From: Streptomonospora salina
GTDB taxonomy: Bacteria > Actinomycetota > Actinomycetes > Streptosporangiales > Streptosporangiaceae
Direction of reading: 5' to 3'
DNA: 64,000 nucleotides
NCBI RefSeq assembly: GCF_014204715.1
Contig: NZ_JACHLY010000001.1
Coordinates: forward strand, 248,001-312,000
Shown piece by piece: positions 17,265 through 24,166 of the stretch. The stretch's first letter is position 1. Every line of letters starts with the position of its first letter. The translations under genes were made by a program, and so were the position numbers. Below the pieces are notes generated by a model. The model worked only from the letters and a program-made list of their open reading frames with translations. It was not told the origin of the DNA and made no database searches.

Positions 17265-17474
17265 CTACTCGTCGAGGCGGAAACCGACCTTCATCCCCAC
17301 CTGGAAGTGGCCGATCGCGCCGTCCTCCAGATGGCCGCGGATCTCGGTGACCTCGAACCAGTCGAGGTGGCGCACGGTGGCGGCCGTGCGGTCGATCCCG
17401 TTGCGGATGGCCTGCTCCAGGCCGTCGGGCGAGCTGCCGACGACCTCGGTGACGCTGTAGGTGCTGTGCGACAT
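17265..17474 (-). CDS. Dodecin-family flavin-binding protein
   Basis: A 69-residue protein that fits dodecin over its whole length: TYSVTEVVGSSPDGLEQAI, then HLDWFEVTEIRG with the Trp that stacks on the flavin isoalloxazine ring, and GHFQVGMKVGFRLDE. Dodecins assemble into hollow 12-mers that store or buffer riboflavin, FMN or CoA. The ATG follows GGAGGAGG at good spacing. It is monocistronic and convergent with pmbA. The 260-base gap to the small RNA promoter shows no other gene. Confidence 0.93.
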   Translation of the reverse strand: MSHSTYSVTEVVGSSPDGLEQAIRNGIDRTAATVRHLDWFEVTEIRGHLEDGAIGHFQVGMKVGFRLDE

Positions 17475-17711
17475 GGGTACTGCCTCCTCCTCGAGCGTAT
17501 TCCCTCACACTTGCCGCCGCCGCGCTCGGCGGCAACGGGGGCTCGCCGGGACCGCTGACCGCTTTGCGTCGAGATAAGCACGCCGTTGCTTTTCCATGGC
17601 CCGCCGCGACCGCGCAGCGTGACAGACGTGATGTATGGGCGTTTGTTCATGTTCTGGGACTTTGGGCTCTCCGGGCACTGCACCCTCCCGAGACAACGTC
17701 GTAACTGAGTC

Positions 17712-17743
17712 TTGACGTACATCCGGGGTGTGCCGTGTACATT
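17712..17743 (+). promoter_or_regulatory. Promoter of the 6C-like small RNA
   Basis: TTGACG (17712-17717) and TACATT (17738-17743) lie directly before the first hairpin. The spacer is 20 bases, longer than the ideal 17-18, so the exact -10 could be shifted. Confidence 0.45.
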
Positions 17744-17859
17744 GGTGTCCAGCGCTTCGGTCCCCCGTCGGAGCGCTACCGCGGTGTTTCGAGCCCCCGT
17801 CGGAGCACCGCATGCGACGTCGGGTGGTTTGCCCCCGTAGCCACCCGACGTCGCTTTTT
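17744..17859 (+). ncRNA. 6C-family-like small RNA with C-rich hairpin loops and intrinsic terminator
   Basis: Three stem-loops follow a promoter. Hairpin 1 (about 17751-17777) has AGCGCT arms, hairpin 2 (about 17781-17813) has GCGGTG/CACCGC arms with G-U pairs, and hairpin 3 (17814-17854) is a perfect 14-base stem followed by TTTTT (17855-17859). All three loops contain CCCCCGT. Paired C-rich loops then a terminator are the defining layout of the actinobacterial 6C RNA, whose loops are thought to pair with G-rich ribosome sites. Loops here have five Cs rather than six. The next gene starts 75 bases past the terminator, so a leader or attenuator role is a lesser alternative. Confidence 0.7.
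17814..17859 (+). terminator. Intrinsic terminator of the 6C-like RNA
   Basis: GCGACGTCGGGTGG (17814-17827) is exactly complementary to 17841-17854, with a 13-base loop and a five-T tail. It is the clearest rho-independent terminator in the window. Confidence 0.85.
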
Positions 17860-17933
17860 CATGCGCACCGACCGGTACTTTGCGTATCAGCGTCCGGGTG
17901 CGCCGGAGAACGAGCAGGAGGGGGAGGACCCCG

Positions 17934-18161
17934 GTGACGGAAAGCGGAGCAGCGCCCGAGGAAGAGGCGCCGCACTGCTCCCGCAAGGACTGCCGCGCCG
18001 ATGCCGCGTGGGTCCTGGTGTGGAACAACCCGAAGGTGCACACTCCCGACCGCCGCAAGACCTGGGTGGCCTGCGACGAGCACCGCGCTTACCTGGCGGA
18101 GTTCCTCGACCGGCGCGGGTTTCTGTCGGAAACCGTGGCCGTGGCCGACTTCGAGGGCTAA
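17934..18161 (+). CDS. Small conserved actinobacterial protein with Cys/His cluster
   Basis: A 75-residue cytoplasmic protein. HCSRKDCRADA and ACDEHRAYLAEFLDRRGF place Cys and His residues as two half-sites of a probable zinc knuckle. WVLVWNNPKVHTPDRRKTW lies between them. The family is widespread in actinomycetes and has no known function; an acetone carboxylase label sometimes attached to it has no support here. The GTG start follows GGAGG; the open frame upstream to 17880 overlaps the RNA gene region and is not used. It is not in an operon with the next gene. Confidence 0.8.
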   Translation: MTESGAAPEEEAPHCSRKDCRADAAWVLVWNNPKVHTPDRRKTWVACDEHRAYLAEFLDRRGFLSETVAVADFEG

Positions 18162-18427: not shown

Positions 18428-21400
18428 TCACGGTTGTCCGGTGTCGACCTCGTCGGGCCCCGCCGCGCGGCCGGCGGCGGTCTCGGCGGCGAACGCCCCG
18501 GCGCCGAGGATCCGGCGGGCGGCGGCGGCGATGCGGTCGACGTCGCCGCGTTCACCCGGGGGCAGGGGCATGCCCAGCGACTCCCGGGCGGCGGCGGCCG
18601 CTGCCAGCAGGCGGGCGCCGCGGGCGGCGTCGCCGGCCAGGATCCAGGCCCCGGCCATCCCTTCCAAGGCGAGGGCGAGCGCCAGCGGCGATCCCGTCGC
18701 GCGAGCGGCCGCCAGGCCCTGGGTGTGCACGCGCAGCGCTTCGCCGGCGTCTCCGCGCTGCTCGGCGACGAAGCCCAGTTCGGCCAGCACCACGGCCAGG
18801 GCCGAGGGCCCCTGGGACGCCCGGTGCCGGCGGAGCCAGTCGGCCAGGCGCTCGGCCGCCCGGTCCAACCGGCCCCCGCGGCGGTCGCCCATGGCCAGGC
18901 CCAGCTCGGCGAACCGCTCGCCGAACCGGTCGCCCTGCTCGCGCGCGAGGCCGGCGGCCCGGCGGTGGAATTCCTCGGCCGCGCTGTGATCGCCGCTGAG
19001 CAGGGAGAGCCGGCCCAGCTCGGACAGCCGGTAGGAGACCTCGGTCCACAGCCCCAGCCCCTCGGCGATGCGCAGGCCCGCGCGGTCGAGGCGGAACGCC
19101 TCGGTGTAGTCGCCGGCCGCCTTCGCGCGCTGGCTGAGCGCCGGCATCGCCTGCAACTGGCCCCATTGGTCGCCGACCTCGCGGAACAGCTCCAGCGCGC
19201 TGCGGGCGTCGGTCTCGAACCGCTCCAGGCGTCCGCGCGCGTGGGCGATCCAGGCGCGGGCGTTCAACGCGGCGGCGGTGCCCCAGCGGTCGCCGCGTGC
19301 GCGCACGGCCTCAAGGGCCTCCTCGACCAGCGGTTCCCCGGCGGCGGCTTCGCCGAACTCCAGCAGGACCGATCCCAGGAACCAGCCCACGCGCGCACGC
19401 TCGGCCTCCTCGTCGGTGCCGAGTGCGGCCAGGCCCGCGCGCGCCACCTCCACCGGTTCCTCGGGCGCGGTGACCAGCAGCTCGGCGGCGCACCGCCAAG
19501 CGCGCGCGGGCCCCGCTCCGCCGACGCGTTCGTCGGCGCGGACGAGCAGCCGGTGCGCCTCGCCGAAGCGGCCCCGCAGGTAGCGGTACCAGAACGGGGC
19601 GAGGGCCAGCCGCACGGCGGCGCCGGTGTCGCCGATGCGTTCGGCGGTGTCGAAGGCGGTGCGCAGGTTGGCGCTCTCCTGGTCGAGGCGGCGCAGCCAC
19701 GACTGCTGGTCGTGGCCCCGCAGCAGTGCCTCGGCACGTTCGGCGACGTCGGCGTAGTGGCGCATGTGCCGTTCGCGCACCGCCGCGGCTTCGCCGGCCT
19801 CGGCCAGGCGCTCAGCGGCGTAGGCGCCGACGGACTCCAACAGCCGGTAGCGGGGTCCGTCTCCGCTGTCGACAGCGGTGACCAGGGACCGCTCGACCAG
19901 GCGGGCCAGCGTGTCCACGACGTCGCCGGGGCGGTCTTCCCCGTCGGCGCACACCTTCTCGACCGCCTCCAGATCGCAGCCCTCGGCGTGCACCGCCAGA
20001 CGGCGCAGCACCGTGCGCTCGTCCTCGGAGAGCAGGTCCCAGCTCCAGTCGAAGACCGCCCGCAGGGTCTGCTGGCGGCGCGGCGCCGCGCGTCCGCCGG
20101 CGCCGAGCACGCCGAACCGGTCGTCCAGTCGGGCGGCGAGTCCGTCGGCGCCCAGCGTGCGGACCCGGTTGGCGGCCAGTTCCAGCGCGAGCGGCAGGCC
20201 GTCCAGGCGGCGGCAGATGTCGGCCACGGCCGGCGCGGTGCGTTCGTCGAGGACGAATCCGGGCGCGGCGGCCGCCGCGCGGGCGGCGAACAGCCGCACC
20301 GACCCGGGCAGGGCCGTCGCGTCGTCCACGCGCAGTTCGCCCTCCGGCACGGCGAGCGGGCGGACGTCGTAGACGTGCTCGCCGGGGATACCCAGCGGCT
20401 CGCGGCCGGTGGCCAGGCAGCGCAGGCCGCCGACGGCCCCCAGCAGCTCGGTGATCAGCCCGGAGACGGGCTCCACGAGGTGCTCGCAGTTGTCGAGCAC
20501 GAGCAGGCCGCCGCCGGCGCGCAGCCGGTCGGCCAGCCGGGCGGCGGGGCTCGCGCCGGCGTCGCCGGCGTCGTCGCGCACGCCCAGGGCGACGGCGATC
20601 GCCTCGGCCACGCGCTCGGCCGGGTCGGTCCCGGCCGCGGGGGCCAGCGAGCCCAGTTCGACCAGGCATACCGCGCCCGCCGCACCGCCGGCGGATCCGC
20701 TCGCCGCCTCCTGGGCCAGCCGGGTCTTGCCGACTCCACCGGGCCCGGCCAGGGTGACCAGGCGTTCGTCGGCCAGCAGCGCCCGGACCTCGGCGACCTC
20801 GCGCTCGCGGCCCACGATGCCGCTGAGCGGGACGGGCAGGTTGGTTCGCGGACGCTGGGGCGCGGCGCCCTCCGAAGGGACGGGGACCTGGCGCAGGATC
20901 TGCCGGTGCAGCGCGGCGGTCTCCGGGGCGGGATCGGCGCCCAGATCCTCGGCCAGGCGGCGGCGCAGCCGGTCGAAGGCGTTCAGAGCCTCGGCCTGGC
21001 GGCCCGAACGGTACAGCGCACGCATGTGCACGCCGACGAGCCGCTCGCGCAGCGGGTGTTCGGCGACCGGATCGCGCAACTCGTCGGCGAGCAGGGCGTG
21101 CTCGCCCAGCTCCAGCCGGCACCGGGCCTGCTCCTCCACCGCGGTCAGCCGCTCCTCGGCCAGGCGGGCGGCCGGGGCTGCGGCGAACGCGTCGTCGGCG
21201 ACGTCGGCATAGGCGGGGCCCCGCCACAGCGCCAGCGCCTCGGCGTAGCGGGCGGCGGCGACGCGGGGGTCGGAGGCCCGGCGGGCGCTCTCCACCAGGG
21301 CGCGGAACCGCCCGGCGTCGACCTCGTCGGGCTCGGCGGCCAGCCGGTAGCCGGCCGGCCCGTGCCGGAGGCGGTCGCGTCCCCCCTCCTCAGCGTGCCC

Positions 21401-21622
21401 CAGCACTCGGCGCAGCTGCGAGACCTTCGCCCGCAGCACGCGGGCCGGGTTCGCCGGCAGGTGCTCGCCCCACAGCTCGTCGACGAGGCGCTCGGCTGCG
21501 GCCGGGCGGCCGTCGCGCACCAGCAGCGCGGCCAGCAGCGCGCGCACCTTGGCCTCGGGCACGCGCACGGGCTCGCCGTCGGCGCGGCGGAGCTCCAGAG
21601 CGCCCAGCACCCCGAATCGCAT
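18428..21622 (-). CDS. AfsR/SARP-type BTAD regulator with NB-ARC ATPase and TPR domains
   Basis: A 1064-residue regulator. An OmpR-like winged helix (residues 1-95, ending in LRAKVSQLRRVLG) is followed by the bacterial transcriptional activator domain (about 100-245) with DDAFAAAPAARLAEERL. An NB-ARC-type ATPase follows with Walker A GPGGVGKTRLA near residue 290, and the C-terminal half is TPR-like helical repeats. AfsR homologues switch on secondary metabolism or transport genes after phosphorylation or nucleotide exchange. The ATG at 21622 starts the winged helix exactly. It is divergent from a QacA-type exporter 224 bases away, its most likely local target; no biosynthetic cluster is next to it. 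Confidence 0.93.
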   Translation of the reverse strand: MRFGVLGALELRRADGEPVRVPEAKVRALLAALLVRDGRPAAAERLVDELWGEHLPANPARVLRAKVSQLRRVLGHAEEGGRDRLRHGPAGYRLAAEPDEVDAGRFRALVESARRASDPRVAAARYAEALALWRGPAYADVADDAFAAAPAARLAEERLTAVEEQARCRLELGEHALLADELRDPVAEHPLRERLVGVHMRALYRSGRQAEALNAFDRLRRRLAEDLGADPAPETAALHRQILRQVPVPSEGAAPQRPRTNLPVPLSGIVGREREVAEVRALLADERLVTLAGPGGVGKTRLAQEAASGSAGGAAGAVCLVELGSLAPAAGTDPAERVAEAIAVALGVRDDAGDAGASPAARLADRLRAGGGLLVLDNCEHLVEPVSGLITELLGAVGGLRCLATGREPLGIPGEHVYDVRPLAVPEGELRVDDATALPGSVRLFAARAAAAAPGFVLDERTAPAVADICRRLDGLPLALELAANRVRTLGADGLAARLDDRFGVLGAGGRAAPRRQQTLRAVFDWSWDLLSEDERTVLRRLAVHAEGCDLEAVEKVCADGEDRPGDVVDTLARLVERSLVTAVDSGDGPRYRLLESVGAYAAERLAEAGEAAAVRERHMRHYADVAERAEALLRGHDQQSWLRRLDQESANLRTAFDTAERIGDTGAAVRLALAPFWYRYLRGRFGEAHRLLVRADERVGGAGPARAWRCAAELLVTAPEEPVEVARAGLAALGTDEEAERARVGWFLGSVLLEFGEAAAGEPLVEEALEAVRARGDRWGTAAALNARAWIAHARGRLERFETDARSALELFREVGDQWGQLQAMPALSQRAKAAGDYTEAFRLDRAGLRIAEGLGLWTEVSYRLSELGRLSLLSGDHSAAEEFHRRAAGLAREQGDRFGERFAELGLAMGDRRGGRLDRAAERLADWLRRHRASQGPSALAVVLAELGFVAEQRGDAGEALRVHTQGLAAARATGSPLALALALEGMAGAWILAGDAARGARLLAAAAAARESLGMPLPPGERGDVDRIAAAARRILGAGAFAAETAAGRAAGPDEVDTGQP

Positions 21623-21846
21623 GGCCCCACCGTAGTGCAGCGGGCACGCACGCGGCGGAGGGCGGAGCCGTCCCGGAGCCTTTCCGGAACCCGCGTGCGG
21701 AACGGTCGGACTGTGAGCGGCGGCAGGCCGCGGTTCCCGCGCGGTGGCCGGGCCCTGTGCGGCCACCGCCGACCGCCTGCCGCCGAACCCGTGCACCCGA
21801 GAGGCTCCACGGCGCCGCCTGGAGTCCGCTGACAGGAGGCCCCTCG

Positions 21847-23475
21847 ATGTCGTCCGACACCGGAACCCCGCATGCCGGCCCCCGGGCCGGTATGCGGGAG
21901 TGGATCGGACTGGCGGTGCTGGCACTGCCGACCGTCCTGCTCGCTCTCGACTTCACCGTCCTGCACCTCGCGCTGCCGCACCTGACCGCCGAACTGGGAC
22001 CCAGCAGCAGTCAGCAGCTGTGGATCCTGGACATCTACGGCTTCATGATCGCCGGATTCCTCATCACGATGGGCACACTGGGAGACCGGATCGGCCGCCG
22101 GCGCCTTCTGATGATCGGTGCGGCCTGCTTCGGCGCCGCCTCGGTCCTGGCGGCCTACGCGGTCAGCGCCGAGATGCTGATCGCCACGCGCGCACTGCTG
22201 GGCATCGCCGGGGCGACGCTGATGCCCTCGACACTGTCGCTGATCAGCACCATGTTCCACGACCCCAAGCAGCGCGGATTCGCGGTGGCGGTGTGGCTGA
22301 GCTGCTTCAGCGCGGGAGGCGCGATCGGCCCGCTCATCGGCGGCGCCCTGCTGGAGTGGTTCTGGTGGGGGGCGGTCTTCCTCATGGGCGTTCCGGTGAT
22401 GGTGCTCCTGCTGATCACCGCACCGCTCCTGCTGCCGGAGTACCGCACCCCCGATCCGGGGCGCATCGACCTCATCAGCGTCGCGCTGTCGCTGGCCGCG
22501 ATCCTGCCGATCGTCTACGCGGTCAAGGACGCCGCCGGGAACGGCTGGAGCGCGCCGGCGGTGGGCATCGTGCTGGTCGGCTTCGTGTTCGGCGGGGTGT
22601 TCGTGCGGCGGCAGCGGTCGCTGGAGGACCCGCTCATGGACGTCGGCCTGTTCCGGTTCCGGGCGTTCACCGTCGGGCTGGGCAGCCTGCTGCTGGGCAC
22701 GCTGGCGCTGGGCGCGTTCGTGCTGCTGTTCGCACAGTACTTGCAGATCGTGCAAGAGCTGCCGCCGATCCGGGCCGGGCTGTGGATGGCGCCCTACGCG
22801 GTGGCCAACATCGCCGGCGCCATGATCGCGCCGGCGGTTGCCGCCAAGCTGCCCGCCAATCGCACGATCGCGCTGGGCCTGCTGGTGGCCGCGATCGGGT
22901 TCGCGATGTTCACCCGGATCGGCGGCGACGGCGGCCTGGTGCTGGGCATCGTGGCCAGTACGCTGATCACCTTCGGGCTCAGCCCTCTCATGGTACTCGT
23001 GATCGACCTGGTGATCGCGGCGGCGCCCAAGGAGCGCAGCGGGTCGGCGTCGGCGATGTCGGAGACGTGCTCGGAGCTGGGCATGGCGCTGGGCGTGGCG
23101 ACCCTGGGCGCGGTCGGCACAGCCGTCTACCGCGCCGTGATCGAGCTGCCGGCGGGCGTGGCGGGCGCAGCCGCCGAGCAGGCTCGCGACGGCCTGCCCG
23201 GTGCCGCCGCGGCGGCCGCGGACCTTCCCCCGAACCCGGCCGGGGATCTGCTCGCTTCGGCGCAGAACGCGTTCATGACCGGCCTGTCGGCGGTCGGCTG
23301 GGCGAGCGCGGTGATGTGCGTGGCGATCGCGGGACTGACGTGGCTGTTCCTGAAGCCCGGGGGCGAGCAGAACGAGGACAGCGGCAGCAACGGCGAAGGC
23401 GACGCGGGGGATTCCCTCGGCGCCTCCGACGCCGGGGCGCACAGCGGGGAAGGGATTCCTACCGAGGGCCGCTGA
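21847..23475 (+). CDS. MFS drug exporter, DHA2 family (14 transmembrane segments, QacA/EmrB-like)
   Basis: A 542-residue proton-coupled exporter. Segment 1 carries LALDFTVLHLALPHL (motif D1 of 14-TM antiporters), the loop between segments 2 and 3 has GDRIGRRRLLMIG (motif A), and segment 5 contains the antiporter motif C region. The last 35 residues are an acidic, Gly-rich cytoplasmic tail. Substrates in this group are lipophilic cations and antibiotics. The ATG follows ACAGGAGG. Divergence from the AfsR-type gene suggests regulated export, but no substrate is implied by the surroundings. Confidence 0.92.
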   Translation: MSSDTGTPHAGPRAGMREWIGLAVLALPTVLLALDFTVLHLALPHLTAELGPSSSQQLWILDIYGFMIAGFLITMGTLGDRIGRRRLLMIGAACFGAASVLAAYAVSAEMLIATRALLGIAGATLMPSTLSLISTMFHDPKQRGFAVAVWLSCFSAGGAIGPLIGGALLEWFWWGAVFLMGVPVMVLLLITAPLLLPEYRTPDPGRIDLISVALSLAAILPIVYAVKDAAGNGWSAPAVGIVLVGFVFGGVFVRRQRSLEDPLMDVGLFRFRAFTVGLGSLLLGTLALGAFVLLFAQYLQIVQELPPIRAGLWMAPYAVANIAGAMIAPAVAAKLPANRTIALGLLVAAIGFAMFTRIGGDGGLVLGIVASTLITFGLSPLMVLVIDLVIAAAPKERSGSASAMSETCSELGMALGVATLGAVGTAVYRAVIELPAGVAGAAAEQARDGLPGAAAAAADLPPNPAGDLLASAQNAFMTGLSAVGWASAVMCVAIAGLTWLFLKPGGEQNEDSGSNGEGDAGDSLGASDAGAHSGEGIPTEGR

Positions 23476-23560: not shown

Positions 23561-24166
23561 TCAACCGGACGTGCCGTGCCCGCCGCGCGCATCCTGCACC
23601 GCGGCGTCGCCGGTGGCGCGGGCCAACTCTTCGGGGGTGTCGCAGTCCAGCGCCGCACGCGCGAGTGCGCCCTCGGCCGCGACCTCGCACGGATCCAGCG
23701 GAGCCAGCAGGCCGCGCAGCGAACGGCCGGTGTAGTCGGCCAGAGCGCTGCGCACCGCCGCAGCGCTCCACACACCCAGCAGCCACTGCACGCGCCCCTG
23801 GGCGTCGACGAGCACGGCTCCGCTGCGTCCCCGGGCCGCGCGGCGCAGGACGTCGAGATGACCGGTCTCCAGGAACGGCAGGTCGCCGGCCAGCAGCGCG
23901 AAACCCGGCCGCTCCACCCCCGCCAGTCCGGCGCGCAGCGCGGGCACCGGGCCCGAGCCCGGCGGGTCCTCGCGGACGTAGCGGGCGGCCGGGCGCTCGC
24001 GGGTCGGGCCCACGACGATCACCCGGTCGGCGGCGCCGGCGGCGTCCGCCACACGCTCGACCAGGCTCCTTCCGCCCACGTCCAGCCCCGGCTTGTCACC
24101 GCCGCCCATGCGCCGGGCGGCTCCCCCGGCCAGGATCACCGCGTCGAACGGATCGGGCTCGGTCAT
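23561..24166 (-). CDS. mobA: Molybdenum cofactor guanylyltransferase MobA-like
   Basis: A 201-residue nucleotidyltransferase that attaches GMP to molybdopterin. LAGGAARRMGGGDKP at residues 12-26 is the nucleotide-binding signature, with LLAGDLPFL carrying the metal-binding Asp. It is shorter than some MobA proteins but complete. The ATG at 24166 begins the fold immediately. moaA lies upstream on the same strand with a 440-base spacer that contains only an rtcB scar. This suggests two molybdenum-cofactor genes that were once separated by a full gene. Confidence 0.87.
   Translation of the reverse strand: MTEPDPFDAVILAGGAARRMGGGDKPGLDVGGRSLVERVADAAGAADRVIVVGPTRERPAARYVREDPPGSGPVPALRAGLAGVERPGFALLAGDLPFLETGHLDVLRRAARGRSGAVLVDAQGRVQWLLGVWSAAAVRSALADYTGRSLRGLLAPLDPCEVAAEGALARAALDCDTPEELARATGDAAVQDARGGHGTSG

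Follow-up and report, generated by a model that had tools for sequence, protein, structure and literature searches.

The C-rich loops of 6C RNA (RF01066) are said, after work by Mai in 2019, to act by an antisense mechanism. Passages of PMC4046766 and PMC8388888 define 6C by a pair of stem-loops carrying some six or more Cs apiece, and an excerpt of PMC6582537 places the 6C gene near that of Ms1 RNA, with one gene between the two, in mycobacteria and in S. coelicolor. Sections of PMC3765725 describe two groups of Streptomyces sRNAs, scr5583/sar2652/svr5279 and scr1434/sar6912/svr1031, that are conserved, strongly expressed and equipped with a C-rich loop, where sRNAs of the scr5583 and scr1434 types are named after the right-hand gene. 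The same sections name RNAIII, a C-rich-loop antisense sRNA whose mRNA-pairing loops resemble those described below by analogy alone.

The RNA reported here was predicted in the window, which is the whole 64,000-nt stretch of Streptomonospora salina DNA that was analysed (C1:248001-312000). Like 6C it is actinobacterial, carries hairpins with C-rich loops and would be expected to act by loop pairing, but it differs from 6C in having three CCCCCGU loops, one of them inside the terminator, and in its locus. The definition of 6C by two C-rich loops does not describe it, since there are three hairpins with five Cs each, terminator loop included. The RNA lies in a tldD-pmbA-dodecin neighbourhood, whereas the genome’s own 6C sits 2.6 Mb away. 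The scr5583 and scr1434 groups resemble it as Streptomyces sRNAs with a C-rich loop, but in Streptomyces the present RNA is situated 3' of tyrS, beside a small gene termed HP93 and a moaA-like gene. In the relevant passages, SCO5583 is amtB (PMC3073908) and moaA of S. coelicolor is SCO1821 (PMC4021200), so the RNA would be separated by gene number from scr5583 and scr1434. The Streptomyces form would correspond to approximately scr1820, and gene number alone would set it apart from the two described groups.

Hairpins, likely promoter and conservation in the family

Positions 17750-17859 (+) of the window form a short intergenic stretch that is probably an independent small-RNA gene with a predicted transcript. 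The gene and its flanks contain the following features.

17265..17474, minus strand: dodecin gene (PF07311, 92.9 bits), divergent neighbour and conserved flank
17712..17743, plus strand: likely promoter read from the sequence, with TTGACG at 17712-17717, a 20-nt spacer and TACATT at 17738-17743
17750..17859, plus strand: predicted small RNA of ~110 nt, 5' end placed from the -10 box (fold z = -6.0; 36/37 same-family genomes; covariation)
17751..17777, plus strand: hairpin H1, loop UCCCCCG, C run at 17762-17766
17781..17811, plus strand: hairpin H2, loop GCCCCCG, C run at 17794-17798
17814..17854, plus strand: terminator-like hairpin H3 with CCCCCGU in its loop, C run at 17832-17836, followed by T5 at 17855-17859
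17934..18161, plus strand: HP93, 75 aa, unannotated downstream neighbour with no Pfam or NCBIfam match

A preliminary description of this DNA had proposed two hairpins containing G-U pairs and a terminator stem, all displaying CCCCCGT in the loop, and sequence and folding bear this out. Three CCCCC-loop hairpins are present at 17751-17854 (+), GT directly follows each of the three C runs, and G-U pairs are found in both H1 and H2. The outer stem of H3 is a perfect 14 bp and runs directly into the TTTTT at 17855-17859. Folding of 17720-17880 gave -88.8 kcal/mol compared to -61.7 ± 4.5 kcal/mol for shuffled sequences (z = -6.0), a value equalled by 0 of 200 shuffles. The start had been set at 17738 and was revised: 17738-17743 is the likely -10 box TACATT, and the position of this box indicates that the RNA probably begins near 17750. 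Single CCCCC-loop hairpins are found at 9 places on the plus and 6 on the minus strand of the window and at 271 places, both strands together, in 1.6 Mb of the 5.6-Mb genome. A cluster of three such hairpins (stem of at least 6, within 130 nt) occurs once in the window, at this locus, and no second one is found in the 1.6 Mb.

The sequence TCTTGAC-N16-20-GTGTAnnnT was observed 5' of the hairpins, at an even distance, in 30 of 30 loci (L002-L031), and a promoter of its own, as expected of a trans-encoded sRNA gene, is thereby found at the sequence level. The 20-nt spacer is unusually long. A simple promoter and terminator scan of the window reported neither the promoter nor the terminator of the RNA because spacer and loop exceed its limits: it accepts a spacer of 16-18, against 20 at this locus, and a terminator loop of at most 8, against 9-13. 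The T run, though good in the window locus, is not conserved among relatives: of 30 family loci, 22 have TTT and 18 have TTTT after H3, and TTT follows the hairpin in 58 and TTTT in 33 of the 119 pattern loci listed (see below). An additional conserved stretch lies 5' of the -35 box at 17690-17717 (+) and in L002-L031, many of these loci reading GAGATC...TCGTAACTAAGTCTTGAC, and it looks like a regulator site as judged from its sequence. GCTCA direct repeats 11 nt apart take the place of the GAGATC stretch in Streptomyces loci (by eye). The dodecin gene and the RNA are divergent and have one upstream region in common.

Matches to the RNA were obtained in 36 of 37 same-family genomes, each at E<1e-6, the sole miss being a draft of 960 contigs (G034). 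The match in G015 comprises the first 63 query bases only, at a contig end, that in G016 is split across two contigs, and some other family matches align across the second half alone. All 30 best family loci (L002-L031) visibly contain the three hairpins. In the 29 distinct sequences from these 30 loci, 36 base pairs are kept in 1044 of 1044 cells, and compensatory changes are seen in 12 of the 36 pairs, four in each hairpin (H1, 9 pairs, 100% paired; H2, 11 pairs, 100% paired; H3, 16 pairs). None of 500 shuffles was as high in cells paired, in pairs or cells changed on both sides, or in covariation score, and the count of further pair types was unexceptional (88/500 shuffles as high). Because the sequences share kinship, these shuffle results do not represent a probability. 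Slid structures, which retain the relatedness, drop to 36-55% pairing, a clear failure of these controls. The predicted structure is thus established by comparison between genomes.

Loop conservation is likewise established by comparison. The H1 loop GGTCCCCCGTC is found in 64 and the H2 loop (A/G)GCCCCCGT in 73 of 75 distinct three-hairpin sequences, a set in which the H3 loop was preset by the search pattern. In loci collected without presetting the loop (L002-L059, 54 places), the H3 loop is kept in 58 of 58. Among these aligned sequences the loops are more constant than the stems. One locus (L011, in G026) displays four Cs in the H1 and H2 loops and five in the terminator loop.

A coding reading of the stretch was considered and is unlikely. 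Two of three frames are open, which is common at high GC, and a 1365-aa ORF across the RNA is one of these two; the length of the linker varies between genomes, and a kept reading frame is therefore unlikely.

One, two or three loops across the class

A covariance model of the three-hairpin form (R1) matched 85 of 296 genomes of the class at E<=0.01. Among the R1 results listed, all 28 same-family genomes match and the 20 misses are from other families. Matches in other families are weaker yet regular, and they include a shorter relative that has this terminator hairpin too. One R1 match (L078, 37.9 bits) was judged false, as it is a long hairpin without a C-loop. A search pattern for the terminator hairpin returned at least 119 stretches in named genomes, which are a sample and not a census.

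A second model (R2) represents the terminator core and was built from 37 sequences of several families. Its alignment has 94.9% of cells paired and 9 of 16 pairs changed on both sides, a count that was reached by 8 of 500 shuffles, and its conservation was partly preset by the picking of the sequences. At E<=0.001, R2 found 126 of the 296 genomes of the class, and in 115 of these the score was no lower than 45 bits; the remaining 11, with a best score below 45 bits, are to be taken cautiously. Across the phylum (149 genomes) R2 gave 9 matches, 6 within the class and 3 outside it, the latter being marginal at 31.9-32.9 bits and in the same weak range as false matches. One of the 6 within the class, an R2 match of 36.6 bits (L389, in G042) with neither a CCCCC loop nor a conserved neighbour, was judged false.

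CCCCC-loop hairpins located 5' of the terminator were counted in the 119 loci listed, grouped by genus name. Two are present in 33 of the 34 loci listed from Streptosporangiales genera and MAGs; in the exception (L113) the contig ends ~100 nt upstream, and the part 5' of the terminator does not resemble that of the family. Streptomycetaceae have one such hairpin in 58 of 60 loci listed, a group that includes one locus labelled Saccharothrix (L132), and the two exceptions are a six-C loop too long for the counting rule (L089) and a stem mismatch (L182). Micromonosporaceae have none in 17 of 17 listed. The 8 vaguely named MAGs listed have two (4 loci), one (2) or none (2), and 24 loci of other families contain additional upstream hairpins, with a C-loop in some and without it in others. 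A TACGAT-like box is found ~10 nt 5' of the hairpin in Micromonosporaceae, so the RNA of this family would be scarcely more than the terminator hairpin itself.

Judged from these alignments and counts, the terminator hairpin with its C-loop is the class-wide core, and the number of hairpins tracks lineage. The terminator loop had initially been taken for an addition to two existing sites; over the class as a whole, however, it stays constant, and variation is confined to the loops upstream of it. We infer that the direction of change was hairpin gain rather than loss.

Proposed mechanism and candidate targets

The reading favoured here, with moderate confidence, is that of an independent sRNA gene whose product would be a trans-acting antisense regulator, using its C-loops at G-rich sites. 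The invariant single-stranded CCCCCGU in covarying stems marks a site required for pairing or binding, and antisense action is the first-choice mechanism because of the 6C precedent. The promoter and terminator hairpin would give a transcript of three hairpins, each loop of which would present a single-stranded (U/G)CCCCCGU. The loops would pair with ACGGGGG-like G-rich sites, typically ribosome-binding sites, and pairing there would block translation, an action that has been reported for 6C and its C-rich loops. The terminator loop would be the constant contact site, and how many contacts each molecule makes would depend on whether the lineage has zero, one or two further upstream copies.

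A broader proposal, which we hold tentatively and rate slightly on the doubtful side, is that these RNAs form one class-wide family in which the terminator is itself the regulator and the invariant CCCCCGU is the contact. An RNA of ~45 nt would then suffice in Micromonosporaceae, and the number of contacts would be set by lineage, at two in Streptomycetaceae and three in Streptosporangiales.

Prediction of targets with ACGGGGG at the ribosome site, an approach suggested in the preliminary description, gave no specific signal among 1359 predicted gene starts (simple gene finder, 1.6 Mb of 5.6 Mb). ACGGGGG was found at 15 of the 1359 starts, and its enrichment at starts relative to gene interiors was no greater than that of other NNGGGGG heptamers. 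Complementarity to the RNA of at least 7 nt was found at 62 starts. Two putative targets were followed in relatives, and neither is conserved outside the genus. ACGGGGG is present at a glutaredoxin-like candidate in 1 of 6 congeners and 0 of 15 further loci, and at a LigD-like candidate in 5 of 6 congeners and 0 of 8 more distant best hits (both names by eye); for the distant hits, the true start may lie outside the region that was read. The LigD-like gene is a possible target within the genus. Pairing of C5 with G5 is weakly specific in a GC-rich genome. In L350-L355, the ACGGGGG near the predicted ribosome site of the LigD-like gene is kept though the flanks change.

The main rival to antisense action is that the RNA serves as a protein sponge, its CCCCCG loops titrating a C-rich-RNA-binding protein (Rho, cold-shock or KH-type). 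CsrB-type RNAs are titrating RNAs with repeated loops in variable copy number, and the identical loops observed here, repeated in a copy number of 1, 2 or 3, are as expected of a titrating RNA. The result of the target prediction, with no specific antisense signal, is also consistent with this explanation. However, no protein partner is known, and the single-loop form of Micromonosporaceae would be a poor titrator. Titration is considered unlikely.

6C, the neighbouring genes and significance

The RNA had been introduced as a 6C-like small RNA. A structured RNA with three C-rich loops has since gained strong comparative support, while membership in the 6C family was not borne out by the Rfam covariance check: cmscan of 17600-18000 against all Rfam families at E<=10 returned no RF01066 match and eight unrelated weak matches of 12.6-22.7 bits, far below thresholds. 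No family of Rfam 15 is over threshold for the window RNA, and none reaches threshold in 20 distant loci of the RNA. When the entire genome was searched with RF01066 at E<=10, there was a sole match, C1:2914675-2914747 (-), at 52.6 bits (cut-off 47 bits). Searches at E<=0.01 found 6C in 48 of 60 relatives, own genome included (39 over the cut-off), and in 34 of 37 same-family genomes (28 over the cut-off). The comparison establishes, at the level of sequence models, that the RNA is distinct from 6C, and the two coexist in most relatives.

Common descent with 6C, the present RNA being a diverged member or paralogue that moved to another locus, would account for the design that both have in common (C-rich stem-loops plus a terminator, conserved in actinomycetes). 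The best local alignment with the genome’s own 6C scores 31, compared to 26.0 ± 4.4 for shuffles, but this score was equalled by 47 of 300 shuffles, and R1 reaches at most 8.0 bits across the 3-kb stretch holding that 6C. Such kinship is improbable also in view of the missing RF01066 match at E<=10, the coexistence of both RNAs at different places, the 20 distant loci without an Rfam family at threshold, and the description of 6C as two loops of about six Cs.

Neighbouring genes were searched with tblastn (E<=1e-5) over a few kilobases around each locus. HP93 is found in 90 of the 119 pattern loci listed, on the same strand in 90 of 90 and within 350 nt in 86, at a median of 72 nt. Dodecin is present within the few kilobases examined in 32 of the 119 listed and in 18 of 24 R2 loci. 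At least one of tldD, pmbA, dodecin and HP93 accompanies 116 of the 119 pattern loci listed and 23 of 24 R2 loci. The conserved place of the RNA is thus established by comparison, and this conserved neighbourhood is evidence that the forms with one, two and three loops descend from a common ancestor. HP93 gave no match to Pfam or NCBIfam at E<=0.001; judged by eye, the arrangement of its Cys and His residues suggests that it binds metal.

The gene order in Streptomyces eurythermus (L097) is tldD, pmbA, tyrS, a small gene, the RNA, HP93 and a convergent moaA-like gene (moaA by eye), and in L082, from Nonomuraea, the genes next to the RNA are mobA- and moaA-like and convergent with it. In the window, an AfsR-like regulator ORF at 18428-21925 (-) and an MFS-like transporter ORF at 21757-23475 (+) sit between HP93 and a mobA-like gene at 23561-24166 (-) (names by eye). 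In two loci, one from Nonomuraea and one from Streptomyces, mob/moa-like genes come directly after the RNA or HP93, and the AfsR-like/MFS-like pair therefore looks inserted.

The proximity and shared strand of HP93 (90 of 119 loci listed, 86 within 350 nt, median 72 nt) would fit a cis-acting leader or attenuator that controls HP93 by readthrough or by C-loop pairing at its ribosome site, and in the window this site, aggagggggagga, contains GGGGGA and is able to pair with the H1 loop. However, only 22 of 121 loci have GGGGG in the 90 nt that precede the conserved part of HP93, and many loci have a -10-like TAGACT or TAGGGT right before the HP93 start, which is leaderless-like (by eye). HP93 was found in 27 of 60 relatives. 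Of the 37 RNA-positive genomes (36 same-family genomes and G037), 20 gave no HP93 hit at E<=1e-5, and in four more (G006, G021, G025 and G027) the gene is displaced elsewhere. The RNA is therefore not merely an HP93 leader, and we regard a leader function as very unlikely. Conservation independent of the neighbouring coding gene, a property of trans-encoded sRNA genes, was found in this way, and independence from HP93 is established by comparison of these genomes. A strong terminator or insulator between genes, with C-loops arising by chance, is hardly credible, for although the terminator hairpin is common to all forms, termination has no need of an invariant loop, yet the stems change and the loops do not, termination would not involve H1 and H2, the stretch immediately 5' of the hairpins contains a promoter-like box, the dodecin gene is oriented away, and the T run is missing in many relatives.

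No description of the RNA or of its loop sequences was found in the literature consulted, which besides the papers cited here comprised PMC6789036, PMC8079986, PMC6429828 and PMC9569102 and whose supplementary tables may list the Streptomyces form, and nothing was found on scr1815 to scr1820 or on an sRNA with SCO1815-1818 or SCO1819/1820. Table 1 of PMC2422843, in its consulted portion, has 5S RNA alone for the S. coelicolor interval from 1.77 to 2.64 Mb, where the RNA would be placed near 1.95 Mb, a rough position derived from gene number. According to an excerpt of PMC11678152, only 6C and a glycine riboswitch were previously known among the core conserved intergenic regions of Streptomyces, which leaves room for the present RNA.

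The RNA, which we infer to be transcribed from near 17750 and to pair with targets of the kind proposed, would join 6C as a second widespread C-loop RNA. Shorter forms of it occur in the chief antibiotic-producing genera, Streptomyces and Micromonospora. The natural one-, two- and three-loop forms would provide a ready test of contact number against the strength and range of antisense action, and the RNA offers a test of the specificity of C-rich loops in GC-rich genomes.
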